From the NCBI GenBank assembly GCA_030691225.1, contig JAUYES010000229.1, positions 1 to 11,633 on the forward strand: a stretch of 11,633 bases of DNA, read 5' to 3'. This stretch comes from Holophaga sp. GTDB lineage: Bacteria > Acidobacteriota > Holophagae > Holophagales > Holophagaceae. This document shows, in pieces, positions 7,644-11,633 of the stretch (the first letter of the stretch is position 1; each line of letters starts with the position of its first letter). The notes beneath the pieces were generated by a model. The model was given only the letters and a program-made list of their open reading frames with translations, had not been told where the DNA came from and made no database searches. A program made the position numbers and the translations under genes.

Positions 7644-7913
7644 AGCCTTCTATCTCCGCTCTCCCTCCCCCCACCCTGTGTGAGTTTCCGGGGCATGTCT
7701 CTGGAAGCTCACACAGGGTCCTTCGCATCCCAGCGCCTCTACATTACGCTGGCATAGAGAAATTACCGGCTTCCCGAAAGCTGGAATGTCCAAAGTATGG
7801 AAATTCTCGTTTGGGTTTGGCTCACCCCGAACCGAAGGGGTTTCCCTATGAAGAAATCGCGTCACGGATTTGCAAATCGCGCTCATTCTACACTGAGGTC
7901 TATCCCGGAAAAA
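7644..7913. other. Gene-free stretch after feoB with hairpins and a possible leader peptide
   Basis: The strongest structure is the hairpin listed at 7673-7719. A second stem, CCAGCG (7730-7735) and CGCTGG (7747-7752), and a third, ACCCC (7824-7828) and GGGGT (7837-7841), follow. A 21-codon open frame starts at ATG 7786 (M-S-K-V-W-K-F-S-F-G-F-G) and its TGA (7849-7851) overlaps an ATG at 7848 in the frame that leads toward the next gene. It has no strong ribosome-binding site, so a leader peptide is only a possibility. I recognise no family in it. Confidence 0.35.
7673..7719. repeat. Long hairpin downstream of feoB
   Basis: Perfect 12-bp arms, ACCCTGTGTGAG (7673-7684) and CTCACACAGGGT (7708-7719), extend inward with TTCC/GGAA pairs and two mismatches, giving a stem of about 19 bp. 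No T-run follows on the + strand, so it is more likely a 3'-end stability or rho-related structure for the feo transcript than a classical terminator, or else a protein-binding dyad. Confidence 0.65.
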
Positions 7914-7993
7914 ATGGCTGCGGCTGGCCAAGGCAAGGCACCCTGTGCTCCCCAGGCGGCCCAGAAGGTCCCCCCGAGCCGAGCCTCACCGCC
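7914..7993 (+). other. Probable frameshifted 5' end of the moeA-like gene at a C6 tract
   Basis: The frame from ATG 7914 (also open from ATG 7848) encodes M-A-A-A-G-Q-G-K-A-P-C-A-P-Q-A-A-Q-K-V-P-P with G/C-biased codons, but then runs out of frame with the downstream gene. Six consecutive C residues lie at 7970-7975. One added C would read P-P-E-P-S-L-T-A-V-P-V straight into the MoeA-like protein. This could be a real disabling mutation, a slippage or phase-variable tract, or a base-calling error. Confidence 0.55.
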
Positions 7994-9019
7994 GTGCCTG
8001 TGGCCGAGGCCGTGGGCCACAAGACCCTGCACGACATGACGCGCATCGTTGCCGGAGAAAGCAAGGGCGTGGAGTTCCACAAGGGGCACGCCATTTCCGG
8101 CGGCGACGTGTGCCGTCTGCAGACCATGGGCCGGGTCCACGTGTACCTGGAGCAGGAGACGCCCAGCGGCTTCATCCACGAGAACGAGGCCGCGCTGGCC
8201 TTCGCCAGGCTCATGGCGGGCGAAAACGTCGCCTTCGACGAGACCCCGCATGAGGGCAAGATCAACTTCCGGGCCACCAAGACCGGCGTGCTGGTGCTGG
8301 ACCGCGAGCGCCAGGAGGCCTTCAACCTAGTGCCCGACGTCATGGCCGCCAGTCGTCACCACGGCGTGCTGGTGGAGGGAGGCAAGGAGTTGGCCGGAGC
8401 CCGCGCCATTCCGCTCTACCTCTCGGCCGAGAACTTCCGCAAGGCTCAGGCTCTGCTCGCGGCCGGGCCGCTGTACAGCATCGCTCCCATCAAGCCCGCG
8501 CGCGTGGGCGTGCTGGTGACGGGCACCGAGGTTTTTCAGGGCCTCATCAAGGACAAGTTCGCGCCCGTCATCCGCGAGAAGGTGGAATGTCTGGGCTCCC
8601 AGGTCGTCGCCGTGGACATCGTGCCCGACGACGCCGAGCGCATCGCCCAAAGCGTGGGCAAGATGCTCACCGCCGGGGCGGACCTCATCGTCACCACGGC
8701 CGGGCTTTCGGTGGACCCGGACGACGTGACCCGCAAGGGGCTCCTCGCCGCGGGCCTGACGGACATGCTCTACGGCGCGCCGCTCTTGCCTGGGGCCATG
8801 ACGCTCCTGGGCCGCCTCGCCAGCCCGGCGAGCAGCACACGCGTCATGGGCGTGCCCGCCTGCGCGCTGTTCCACAAGGCCACCAGCTTCGACATCCTCT
8901 TGCCGCGCGTGCTGGCCGGCGTGGACCTCAAGCGCGCTGACCTGGCCGAAATGGCCGAGGGCGGCTTCTGCCTCAACTGCAAGACCTGCGTGTACCCCAA
9001 GTGCTGCTTCGGCAAGTAG
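7994..9019 (+). CDS. MoeA-like molybdopterin-binding protein with Cys-rich C-terminus
   Basis: This open frame gives 341 residues if read from the GTG at 7994. Residues ~1-165 match the N-terminal region of small MoeA-like proteins (V-P-V-A-E-A-V-G, then H-D-M-T-R-I-V-x-G-E-x-K-G). Residues ~168-310 form a MoCF/MoeA molybdopterin-binding fold, with V-G-V-L-V-T-G-T-E-V-F (171-181) and L-I-V-T-T-A-G-L-S-V-D-P-D-D (231-244). The C-terminal tail carries C326, C329, C332, C337 and C338. It may bind molybdopterin during cofactor insertion or delivery, with the tail holding a metal or Fe-S centre; this is inference. No ribosome-binding site precedes the GTG, and the true start is probably ATG 7914 with a frameshift between. 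GC content is clearly higher than in feoB. It ends just before a strong terminator. Its last 168 bp recur in decayed form further right. Confidence 0.8.
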   Translation: MPVAEAVGHKTLHDMTRIVAGESKGVEFHKGHAISGGDVCRLQTMGRVHVYLEQETPSGFIHENEAALAFARLMAGENVAFDETPHEGKINFRATKTGVLVLDRERQEAFNLVPDVMAASRHHGVLVEGGKELAGARAIPLYLSAENFRKAQALLAAGPLYSIAPIKPARVGVLVTGTEVFQGLIKDKFAPVIREKVECLGSQVVAVDIVPDDAERIAQSVGKMLTAGADLIVTTAGLSVDPDDVTRKGLLAAGLTDMLYGAPLLPGAMTLLGRLASPASSTRVMGVPACALFHKATSFDILLPRVLAGVDLKRADLAEMAEGGFCLNCKTCVYPKCCFGK

Positions 9020-9049: not shown

Positions 9050-9078
9050 AAGGCCCCGCTGTGAGACGGGGCCTTTTT
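9050..9078 (+). terminator. Rho-independent terminator of the moeA-like gene
   Basis: A 9-bp perfect stem, AAGGCCCCG (9050-9058) and CGGGGCCTT (9067-9075), with an 8-base loop runs into TTTTT. It sits between two convergent genes and mainly suits + strand transcripts, though it may also slow those arriving from the - strand. Confidence 0.88.
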
Positions 9079-9098
9079 ATGTTGCCGGAGGGATTGGT

Positions 9099-9656
9099 TC
9101 ACGAACCGCAGTGCGGACAGCCCTTCGGCTTGCGGATGTAGTCCATGATGCTCCCCCTGGCATCCAGTTCCAGGTGGCAACAGTCCTCTATCATCCGCCG
9201 GACCAGGAGCCGCCCGCGCAGAACCCTGGACTTGACCGCAGGCAGGGATATTCCCAGACGCTCTGCCACCTCGCGTTGTTTGACTCCCTCCAGATCGGCC
9301 AAGACCAATGCCGCACGGACTTTTTCTGGCAAGGCTTCGATCATTGGCCTCAGGCAGGACTCCATGTCTTCCGGGGAGGCGCTGCTTGGCTCAAGGCCGG
9401 GGTCGGCCAACTCCTCCGGGAGTTCACTCGTTGGCCGTTTGCTCCGAAAGTAGTCCGTCACGGCATTGCGCGCCACGGTGAACAGCCAGGCCCGCAGGTG
9501 GTCTACCCGCTGCACTGAAGCAAGGCTTGTCAGCATCTTGAGGAACACGTCATGGAGAATGTCCTCGGCCTCGGCCGGTGACCGCACCCGCTTCAGGATA
9601 AAGGATTTGAGTTCGCCCCGGTGTGCCTGCCAGATCATTTCCAGCTTCTGCCGCAT
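9099..9656 (-). CDS. sigZ: ECF-type RNA polymerase sigma factor, SigZ-like
   Basis: This is a 185-residue sigma-70 family protein of the extracytoplasmic-function type. Region 2 lies at about residues 12-75 (A-E-D-I-L-H-D-V-F-L-K-M, then L-R-A-W-L-F-T-V-A-R-N-A-V-T-D-Y-F-R), and region 4 at about 105-155 (L-A-D-L-E-G-V-K-Q-R-E-V-A-E-R-L-G-I-S, then V-K-S-R-V-L-R-G-R). After region 4 comes C-C-H-L-E-L-D-A-R-G and then K-G-C-P-H-C-G-S at the end, a cysteine-bearing tail typical of the SigZ-like branch. No anti-sigma gene is adjacent, so the tail may itself sense metal or redox state; that is inference. The start lies 11 bp after the arsM stop on the - strand, with GAGG upstream, so the two form one operon. 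Confidence 0.9.
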   Translation of the reverse strand: MRQKLEMIWQAHRGELKSFILKRVRSPAEAEDILHDVFLKMLTSLASVQRVDHLRAWLFTVARNAVTDYFRSKRPTSELPEELADPGLEPSSASPEDMESCLRPMIEALPEKVRAALVLADLEGVKQREVAERLGISLPAVKSRVLRGRLLVRRMIEDCCHLELDARGSIMDYIRKPKGCPHCGS

Positions 9657-9667
9657 GCGTCGCGCCT

Positions 9668-10465
9668 CTATTCTTTGACTGCCTCAATCGCCGCCGAGGC
9701 GACGACTCCGCCCAGGCCCAGGCCAGGAAACATCTCGTCCATCATCCGGCCGCTTTCCGGGTTGAGCCGGATGGACACCTGCTGGAACCCGGCTGCGCGC
9801 ATCATCTCCTCCAGAACCTCCACCCGTGCAGCCCCGGCCACGCACTCTGCGTGGAGCATGACGTTCGCCCGGATGTCATCGGCCATGTCCGCCACTGCCA
9901 CGATGTCCGCGATGGCCAGCCTGCCGCCTCTCTTCAGCACCCGGTAGGCCTCCCGGAACACCTGCCCTTTGTCCGTGCTCAGGTTGATTACGCAGTTGGA
10001 GAGCACGACATCGGCCTCTGCGTCGGCCACAGGCAGGTGCTCGATTTCGCCTAGGCGGAACGTGGCGTTGACGCACTGGGCGGCCACCGCGTTTCTCCTC
10101 GCCTTTTCCACCATCTCCGGCGTCATGTCCACGCCGATGATGTGCCCCGTCTCGCCCACCTGGCGGGCGGCGAGGAAGCAGTCGAAGCCACCGCCGCTGC
10201 CCAGGTCCACCACCACCTCGTCGGGCCTGAGGGCCGCTATGGCATGGGGGTTGCCACAGCCAAGGCCCATGTTCGCCCCCTCAGGAACGCTTTGCAGGTC
10301 CCCTTTGGAGTAGCCGACCGACATGGCCAGCGCCTCGGACGTGGCCTGACCTTGCGGGCTACAGCACCCGCTGCCGCAGCCGCAGCCGGCCGTACCGGCG
10401 AGTGCTGTTTCCGAGTACCTTTTGCGGATGGTTTCCCTGATCTCGCTGTCCCTGTTCGCTTTCAT
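9668..10465 (-). CDS. arsM: Arsenite S-adenosylmethionine methyltransferase
   Basis: This is a 265-residue SAM-dependent methyltransferase that converts As(III) to methylated species. The N-terminus has a Cys cluster, C-G-C-G-S-G-C-C (28-35). M-G-L-G-C-G-N-P (66-73) contains C70, and the SAM-binding motif V-V-D-L-G-S-G-G-G-F-D (85-95) follows. C158 (L-S-N-C-V-I-N-L) and C208 (H-A-E-C-V-A-G) complete the arsenic-binding set that corresponds to C72/C174/C224 of the algal enzyme CmArsM. The length is normal. I chose the ATG at 10465 because GGAGG (10473-10477 complement) lies 7 bp before it; the frame runs open to 10807 but upstream it crosses a pseudogene fragment. It leads the operon with the sigma factor gene. 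No arsR, arsB or acr gene is in the window, so regulation may run through the sigma factor. Confidence 0.92.
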   Translation of the reverse strand: MKANRDSEIRETIRKRYSETALAGTAGCGCGSGCCSPQGQATSEALAMSVGYSKGDLQSVPEGANMGLGCGNPHAIAALRPDEVVVDLGSGGGFDCFLAARQVGETGHIIGVDMTPEMVEKARRNAVAAQCVNATFRLGEIEHLPVADAEADVVLSNCVINLSTDKGQVFREAYRVLKRGGRLAIADIVAVADMADDIRANVMLHAECVAGAARVEVLEEMMRAAGFQQVSIRLNPESGRMMDEMFPGLGLGGVVASAAIEAVKE

Positions 10466-10481: not shown

Positions 10482-10540
10482 GCCGCTTTCGCGGCGTGTT
10501 GTGCAGTGAAGACGGGCGAAGGGGCAAAAGGATGCATCCT
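10482..10540 (-). promoter_or_regulatory. arsM leader: GAAA-loop hairpin and a 12-bp palindrome
   Basis: On the - strand, GCCGC-GAAA-GCGGC (10495 down to 10482) forms a tetraloop hairpin directly before the arsM ribosome-binding site. Further upstream, AGGATGCATCCT (10529-10540) is a perfect 12-bp palindrome that could be an operator. No clear -35/-10 pair for a housekeeping sigma factor is visible, which leaves room for an ECF promoter. Confidence 0.4.
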
Positions 10541-10588
10541 GTGCGAGAGCGGGAGAAATCCCACCAGAGGTTCTGTGCGGGTGATGGC

Positions 10589-10755
10589 GTGCCGGCTTGC
10601 GCCCTGTTCCACAAGGCAACAAACTGCGACATCCTCTTGCCGCGTGTGCTGGCCGGTGTGGAATTGAAACGTGCCGACCTGGCCCAGATGGCCGAGGGCG
10701 GCTTCTGCCTGGGCTGCCGCACCTGCGTGTACCGAAGTGCCCTTTCGGGAAGTAG
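10589..10755 (+). pseudogene. Displaced 3' fragment of a moeA-like gene (copy 2)
   Basis: These 167 bp align from end to end with the last 168 bp of the intact gene (8852-9019). They translate as V-P-A-C-A-L-F-H-K-A-T, then C-D-I-L-L-P-R-V-L-A-G-V, A-E-G-G-F-C-L-G-C-R-T-C-V-Y, and differ by scattered changes, many of them synonymous. A 2-bp loss after the Tyr codon breaks the frame; restoring it gives P-K-C-P-F-G-K and a TAG stop at 10753-10755. Homology may begin near 10555 in another frame (P-T-R-G-S-V-R-V-M). It is therefore a remnant of a related but different allele, not a recent copy. Confidence 0.85.
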
Positions 10756-10772
10756 CGTAGTGCAAAGACGCA

Positions 10773-10797
10773 TCGTTCCGGTCCGCTCCGATTCGGA
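10773..10797 (+). repeat. CGTTCCG-rich motif, copy 1
   Basis: This run of TCCG steps (CGTTCCGGTCCGCTCCGATT...) starts about 20 bp after the stop of the copy 2 fragment. The same arrangement recurs after copies 3 and 4. Confidence 0.7.
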
Positions 10798-10822
10798 TTG
10801 TCCTCATGGGTGACGTGCCCTC

Positions 10823-10930
10823 TTACGCGCATAGGGTTCCGCCAGGCATGGGGTGCGTCTAATTGCCAGCCAGGGCCAGGGGAGGGGGGCGTTGTGGATG
10901 CATGCCCCGGCTCCTCGTTGCTCGCCCCTT
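10823..10930 (+). repeat. Trailer repeat, copy 1
   Basis: This ~108-bp segment matches 11472-11583 with small indels. Shared blocks are TTACGCGC, GCCAGGCATGG, AATTGCC, CCAGGG and CGTTGTGGATGCA (10890-10902 and 11541-11553). It leads directly into the next moeA-like 3' fragment. Confidence 0.75.
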
Positions 10931-11082
10931 TCACAGCCAAATAACCACGCGCTGCAACATCCCGCTGCTGCGCGTTCTGGCCGACGTGGGGCCGGTTGGC
11001 GCGACCTGGCGGACAGCCCCGATAACGGCTTGTGTGCTTGGCTGGCGCACCTGCGTGTATCCCAAGCACCTCTCTGGAGTAG
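10916..11082 (+). pseudogene. Decayed moeA-like 3' fragment (copy 3)
   Basis: These 167 bp align with copy 2 along their whole length but are more diverged. GCAACATCC, CTGGCCGACGTGG, GCGACCTGGC and GCGCACCTGCGTGTATCCCA (11044-11063) keep the order and spacing, ending at a TAG (11080-11082) in the place of the original stop. The protein frame is broken in the middle, but L-R-V-L-A-D-V and W-R-T-C-V-Y-P-K survive. Confidence 0.75.
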
Positions 11083-11097
11083 CGAAGAACCAGCATG

Positions 11098-11123
11098 TAC
11101 CGTTCCGTTCCGCTCCGTTCCGG
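11098..11123 (+). repeat. CGTTCCG-rich motif, copy 2
   Basis: This is TACCGTTCCGTTCCGCTCCG and onward, placed 15 bp after the stop position of fragment copy 3. It immediately precedes fragment copy 4. Confidence 0.7.
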
Positions 11124-11138
11124 GGTGGTTTCTTCCGA

Positions 11139-11304
11139 GTGCCAGCATGCGTGTCGTTCCGCAAAGCCACCAGCTTCGTATCCTCTTGCCACGCGTGCTC
11201 ATGGGCATGGAGTTTCCCCCGGTTTGACCTGACGGACATGTCCGATGGCGGTCTTTGCCTGACTGGCGCGCCAGCGTGTACTCCAAGCCCTCTTCGGAAA
11301 GCAG
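11139..11304 (+). pseudogene. Decayed moeA-like 3' fragment (copy 4)
   Basis: These 166 bp align with copies 1-3: GTGCCAGCATGCGTG, then AAAGCCACCAGCTTCG, ATCCTCTTGCCACGCGTGCT (11179-11198) and D-L-T-D-M-S-D-G-G-L-C-L. The stop codon position now reads CAG (11302-11304), so the ancestral TAG is lost, and small indels break the frame. Confidence 0.78.
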
Positions 11305-11318
11305 TGGAGAATCAACAC

Positions 11319-11342
11319 GTACCGTTCCGGTCCGATCCGGAT
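11319..11342 (+). repeat. CGTTCCG-rich motif, copy 3
   Basis: GTACCGTTCCGGTCCGATCC and onward, again placed about 15 bp after the former stop position of the preceding moeA-like fragment (copy 4). Confidence 0.7.
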
Positions 11343-11403
11343 TTTCATCTTACGCGTGCGCGCCCTCGCGCGCGCGAAAGACAAAGGCGAAATGCAAGAA
11401 AGA

Positions 11404-11424
11404 CATCGGAACGGATCGGAACGT
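11404..11424 (-). repeat. CGTTCCG-rich motif, inverted copy 4
   Basis: ATCGGAACGGATCGGAACGT is the reverse complement of the same motif. With copy 3 (11319-11342) it forms a long inverted pair enclosing about 60 bp. Confidence 0.7.
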
Positions 11425-11471
11425 ATAATTTATGACCTTCTTGATTAAGAAAGGAAGAAAAAGAAGAAGAT

Positions 11472-11583
11472 TTACGCGCGCGCGTTGGGCGCCGCCAGGC
11501 ATGGGAGTGTCAAATTGCCCTCCAGGGTATGGGCGGGTGCCGTTGTGGATGCACACGCAGGCGCCGCGTTGCTAGCCCCGCTC
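11472..11583 (+). repeat. Trailer repeat, copy 2
   Basis: This is the second copy of the segment at 10823-10930, shifted by about 650 bp. As in the first copy it runs into the beginning of another moeA-like 3' fragment. Confidence 0.75.
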
Positions 11584-11633
11584 ACGGCCGATTAGACATC
11601 AAATTCCGGCTTGGATGGAGCCGATTAGTCATC
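11567..11633 (+). pseudogene. Start of a fifth moeA-like 3' fragment, cut by the window edge
   Basis: GTTGCTAGCCCCGCTCACGG (11568-11587) lines up with the start of fragment copy 3 (GTTGCTCGCCCCTTTCACAG, from 10918). Similarity fades after about 11600, where a short direct repeat begins, so the fragment may be interrupted there. Confidence 0.45.
11587..11633. repeat. Short direct repeat at the right edge
   Basis: GCCGATTAGACATC (11587-11600) recurs as GCCGATTAGTCATC (11620-11633), 13 of 14 bases alike with a 33-bp period. Such spaced repeats are found near the ends of some insertion sequences, for example the IS21 family, but no transposase is in view. Confidence 0.5.

Follow-up and report, generated by a model that had tools for sequence, protein, structure and literature searches.

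Several described systems resemble the locus presented here. Partial gene duplicates and tandem pseudogene fragments share with it a 3' gene piece, a tandem register, indels and frame breaks, but the unit of the present array adds about 150 bp of non-gene DNA, and its copies are strongly diverged. Prophages and islands can integrate at the 3' ends of genes, as does prophage e14 at icd, and the locus is similar in its ~170-bp gene 3' ends and their direct orientation; however, no integrase was found with the array, no element lies between its ends, its register is tandem, and its edges are not identical. Two further families are represented by partial copies. An insertion sequence of the IS3 family is recognized by its terminal repeat and the start of OrfA, but just its left end is retained. 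FmdE family proteins with a MoCF domain are matched over about their last 346 residues, at 88 to 96% identity to those of Humidesulfovibrio, whereas the N-terminal part bearing the FmdE domain is lacking. Here, we describe an array of fmdE 3' ends next to a sigma factor/methyltransferase gene pair and weigh the explanations for its origin.

Source contig and the truncated fmdE copy

The window, i.e., the whole stretch of 11,633 bp that was analyzed, is a complete contig from an assembly of 837 contigs with a completeness of 76%. The 30 relatives assigned to this assembly give only weak matches to the fmdE-like protein of the window (at most 38% identity, with any match in 14 of the 30). Given these weak matches and the high identity to Humidesulfovibrio proteins, the contig is probably misbinned, its source being a Humidesulfovibrio-like organism; the local finding is unaffected by this. 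The features to the left of the array are as follows.

7765..7889, + strand: decayed left end of an IS3-family insertion sequence, with terminal repeat and OrfA start (similarity to copies in the genus)
7947..9019, + strand: 5'-truncated copy of fmdE, an FmdE-MoCF fusion gene (DNA and protein similarity, domain scan)
9050..9085, no strand assigned: hairpin and T-run, an apparent terminator located between the convergent genes for the fmdE copy and the sigma factor (by eye)
9099..9656, - strand: ECF-type sigma factor gene (Sigma70_r2 and Sigma70_r4_2)
9668..10465, - strand: methyltransferase gene (Methyltransf_31; start codon picked by eye), which we take, by eye, to be ArsM-like

The Pfam scan covered 18 of the 82 ORFs listed for the window. 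Rfam gave no match at gathering thresholds over the whole window and a single chance-level match (E = 0.26) in the array region; a tRNA search of the window found none, and plasmid and phage records contained no match.

The original prediction described the long gene as an intact moeA-like gene, but it was found to be truncated at its 5' end. Full-length relatives are FmdE/MoCF fusions of about 558 amino acids with the domains FmdE (PF02663), PF23475 and PF00994. About 210 of their N-terminal residues are missing from the window copy, the translation of which has a Pfam match to MoCF_biosynth alone, so that the combination of an N-terminal FmdE domain with a MoCF domain that characterizes the fusion is not present. 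Similarity to the full genes at the DNA level starts at 7947 for the closest one (L009) and at 7917 to 7991 for L010 to L019, and the protein match extends back to 7880, which places the 5' break between ~7880 and 7947. The ratio dN/dS of the long copy to three native genes was 0.23, 0.15 and 0.15, as compared to 0.13 to 0.17 among the natives, and no stop codon was found, suggesting that the truncation is recent or that the remainder is still constrained. Next to fmdE in L009 to L019, the flanking genes of the window were absent. A hairpin similar to the one at 9050..9085 was seen by eye beside the same sigma factor gene in L107 and L106.

The fmdE break is at most 58 bp from the IS3-family left end. 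Matches to 7765-7889 with 73 to 81% identity occur in 6 of 15 genomes of the genus, at 12 places in all. The copy in one relative (L226) runs on into OrfA (HTH_Tnp_1) and OrfB (rve), the pair of reading frames that characterizes the IS3 family, and the window holds the left end only. Solo left ends, as at 7765-7889, were also seen at 5 of the 12 fetched places (L222, L223, L224, L225 and L230). They span about 135 to 172 bp, and no right end was seen in the flanking DNA that was fetched; two more of the places reach contig ends.

Organization of the array of fmdE 3' ends

The array consists of three units, numbered 2 to 4, that are composed of a gene end (A), a tail (T) and, in two of them, a spacer (B).

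10577..10756, + strand: A2, fmdE 3' end, first array copy, frame broken near its end (similarity)
10757..10825, + strand: T2, tail common to the array copies (similarity to T3 and T4)
10826..10930, + strand: B2, spacer (76% identity to 11479-11594; the similarity to B4 reaches 10943)
10931..11081, + strand: A3, fmdE 3' end with several indels, clear match from ~10945 (similarity)
11082..11138, + strand: T3, tail containing a 5-bp repeat in 4.6 copies and not followed by B (similarity, Tandem Repeats Finder)
11139..11304, + strand: A4, fmdE 3' end with several indels (similarity)
11305..11375, + strand: T4, tail (similarity)
11376..11478, no strand assigned: about 100 bp present in unit 4 only, between CGCGCGCG runs (unlike T2 and B2, z = 0.5 and 0.6)
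11479..11594, + strand: B4, second spacer copy (similarity to B2), which includes the fragment claimed at 11567

The prediction that three fragments match the 168-bp end of the long gene (8852-9019) was borne out. The alignments scored 217 (A2), 90 (A3) and 142 (A4), while the best of 300 dinucleotide shuffles reached 47, 44 and 40, respectively, and the identity to the gene end was 82 to 84% over 10577-10756, 69% over 10945-11066 and 73% over 11139-11304. A probable fourth fragment at 11567 did not hold up, scoring 18 against a best shuffle of 35 (z = -0.1) and lying in B4. The 3' flank that the fragments were said to share was recovered for T2/T3, T2/T4 and T3/T4 (z = 7.2, 11.6 and 10.0; reached by none of 200 simple shuffles), and the fragment tails are indeed unlike the sequence that follows the long copy (z = 0.6, -0.6 and 0.0). 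Identical start and end points were also part of the prediction. However, the clear match to the gene starts at ~10577 in A2, at ~10945 in A3 and at 11139 in A4, and the similarity among the fragments does not end at the stop codon but passes it into the tail T. The native frame through the tail of the protein is kept by none of A2, A3 and A4, and no Pfam domain was identified in seven ORFs of the array region.

In A and T, unit 2 aligns colinearly with unit 4 (10589-10830 to 11139-11375, E = 3e-24), and so do the B parts of the two (10826-10943 to 11479-11594, E = 5e-21); B occurs only twice in the window. The spacings between the A parts are 328 and 221 bp, and that between the B parts is 653 bp, i.e., 2 x 328 - 107 + 104. 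The repeat in T3 (11100-11122) has the motif CCGTT, which is found inverted in the 100-bp insertion (11405-11423). The contig end (11633) falls inside the array; two near copies of GCCGATTAGNCATC with a start-to-start distance of 33 bp lie at this end (11587-11633) and are perhaps the start of another repeat.

No clear similarity was detected between T or B and the sequences that follow fmdE in 14 relatives (28 comparisons with 40 shuffles each; best z = 3.6, for B2). A search of 15 genomes of the genus with T2+B2 gave nothing under E = 0.01, the weak matches being of 18 to 32 bp with a best E of 0.011, and the stretch from T4 to the contig end, used as a query, had no match outside the window in its own assembly.

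Gene ends in related genomes

The arsM-like/sigma block is 85 to 88% identical in strain BO58 (G042), where about 136 bp of a decayed fmdE end lie beside the sigma factor gene in the same orientation. On the arsM side the similarity stops at window position 10546, and the array was not found in the 8 kb fetched beyond. At the protein level, the BO58 fragment has fmdE proteins of other kinds as its six best matches (76 to 81% over 37 residues); the fmdE of BO58 itself is not among these six, and a tree leaves the origin of the fragment unsettled. In G048 and G049, the block adjoins another gene, by eye an AMP-ligase.

A protein search with the 57-residue end returned seven proteins, including one encoded in the window. 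P0124 starts with a stretch resembling the translation of window 10500-10577 and then continues into the gene end, in frame to the native stop; this protein is the apparent counterpart of A2, and its junction indicates that the array start is genuine and occurs elsewhere too. Two other proteins, P0121 and P0123, are frames of 57 residues and may be isolated ends or the ends of frame-broken full genes, and P0122 and P0126, on contigs of 944 and 579 bp, are probably cut genes.

In a wider family search with the last 57 residues, at least 248 of 288 genomes had a match. Four short-frame candidates for isolated 3' ends among the matches listed were checked: those in G111 and G301 are full length, that in G078 is full length in two frames, and that in G283 is cut by a contig end. 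Two more short-frame matches lie near contig starts, in G326 and G089. Second matches within four genomes of the genus were rejected as isolated ends since they match the long copy over its whole length and are thus paralogues (L086 to L089); this check covered matches other than G133:C6, G080:C8 and those of 28 to 50 bp. On G049:C37 and G080:C8, an integrase match lies upstream of an fmdE paralogue, by position at most ~2 kb from its estimated start. In more distant relatives, a Pfam scan of 38 of the 56 listed ORFs downstream of fmdE showed no integrase among 25 of its 65 families.

Origin of the array

It is concluded with moderate confidence that the array derives from a captured fmdE 3' end beside the arsM-like/sigma pair, which was tandemly duplicated and then decayed. 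In a Humidesulfovibrio-like bacterium, a 3'-terminal fmdE piece of ~180 bp would have come to lie before the arsM-like/sigma pair and, together with other DNA, would have formed an A+T+B unit of ~328 bp. Ordinary tandem duplication, through slippage or unequal crossing-over, may then have multiplied this unit head to tail. Unit 3 would later have lost B (~107 bp), unit 4 would have gained ~104 bp, and the units would have decayed through base changes and small indels. The long copy at 7947-9019 would be a separate, younger fmdE copy, truncated at its 5' end by the loss of the first ~210 codons beside the IS3-family remnant. The sequence matches, their register, the 5' truncation and the IS remnant are direct observations, from which we infer both this order of events and the mechanism of duplication.

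Under tandem duplication, the fragment edges look alike because the fragments are copies of one unit, and the three spacings result from a single period of 328 bp with one loss and one gain; with these two allowed, the units are colinear at a constant period. At its threshold, Tandem Repeats Finder did not report the 328-bp array, as expected at such divergence. Several observations count against tandem duplication. The decay is uneven, the identity being 82 to 84% for A2, 69% for A3 and 73% for A4, whereas units that were duplicated together and free of selection should decay alike. A3 and A4 score 88 and 142 to the gene end but 87 and 111 to A2, and only 78 to each other, so that a derived ancestor common to the A parts is not clearly evident. 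In a tree of gene ends, the fragments are on long branches with poor support, which is too weak for dating them. Furthermore, the plain 328-bp form is present in one unit only, and the others require a loss or a gain.

According to an alternative that appears unlikely, the fragments are relic attachment sites: an integrative element would have targeted the fmdE 3' end, rebuilt it and displaced the old end, the elements being lost later. This would fit with the directly oriented gene ends (8852-9019 and 10577-10756) that flank the accessory gene pair, the patchy distribution of this pair (strong matches in 3 of 11 genomes and the leader in two more, G133 and G080), and the situation in BO58, in which a decayed fmdE end occupies the same position next to the sigma factor gene. 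It is kept at this level on account of the unequal decay, the closeness of A3 and A4 to the gene end, and the finding that the end nearest the gene is the least decayed, which sequential displacement would give too. However, repeated site-specific integration, as originally proposed, gained no support from the Pfam searches or from the tandem register in which the spacers are shared. In 11 genomes, a search for Phage_integrase at E = 1e-6, which covered the tyrosine type only and gave matches in every genome, placed none of them within 60 kb of fmdE where the two share a contig, and none on the contig that holds the BO58 fragment. The nearest match on an fmdE contig is at ~68 kb (G043:C17), those on G080:C3 and G170:C1 are more than 170 kb away, and the remaining eight fmdE contigs and the BO58 fragment contig have none. 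Given that the search was confined to the tyrosine type and that some of the contigs with fmdE are short (G047, 5,491 bp; G045, 6,413 bp) or stop close to the gene (G044), this result weakens the integration model without overturning it. Further arguments against it are the seven array ORFs without a Pfam domain, the viral contigs, in which nine stretches matched a pattern but none is a relative of the last 57 residues, and the downstream neighbors of fmdE, one being common to 7 of 11 relatives and another to 3 of 11; the remaining one (L012) has no shared neighbor, its contig ending near the gene. In addition, G048 and G049 carry the arsM-like/sigma pair without an fmdE end. The identical crossover point of attachment relics was not found, though decay could blur the edge.

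It appears distinctly unlikely that the fmdE 3' end is a recurrent target of capture or integration in Humidesulfovibrio, served by an undescribed recombinase or transposition process with the arsM-like/sigma pair as one cargo. Isolated ends in the window, in BO58 and perhaps in P0121 and P0123 would be in line with this, and most of them begin near the MGVPAC codon; the match in BO58 begins ~30 bp after this point.

We consider it very unlikely that a small mobile repeat captured the gene end and spread by itself. T and B are common to the units and foreign to fmdE, but the searches with T2+B2 in the 15 genomes of the genus and with T4-to-end in the assembly, as well as those of plasmid and phage records, argue against such a repeat. 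The original suggestion of a repeat element with a captured gene end nevertheless came close in that a repeat unit with a captured end is present; it fails in that this unit is a local tandem repeat and not dispersed. An assembly chimera or a misbinned contig is a still less probable source of the array. The assigned relatives only weakly match the fmdE protein, and the contig ends inside a repeat; however, misbinning leaves the local sequence unchanged, and BO58 carries the gene end beside the sigma factor gene. A chimera is unlikely since the first junction, from leader to gene end, recurs in the independent protein P0124 (longest contig, 37,477 bp). A reservoir of alternative Cys-rich tails for gene conversion can practically be dismissed: the copies share the tail-coding part only and P0124 keeps the frame, but none of the three window fragments does so, the supposed recipient gene is truncated, an isolated end was seen only in BO58 among the 15 genomes of the genus (the two second matches G133:C6 and G080:C8 aside), and the variability of the tail is not unusual (mean entropy over 46 proteins of 0.40 bits for the last 57 residues and 0.57 for the Cys-rich last 33, as compared to 0.64 in the rest).

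Should the fmdE 3' end be a recurrent target after all, it would represent a new integration target in sulfate reducers, moving an apparently arsenic-related gene pair. For the tandem duplication favored here, the locus serves as a caution that equal-looking fragment edges can arise by tandem duplication of one unit.
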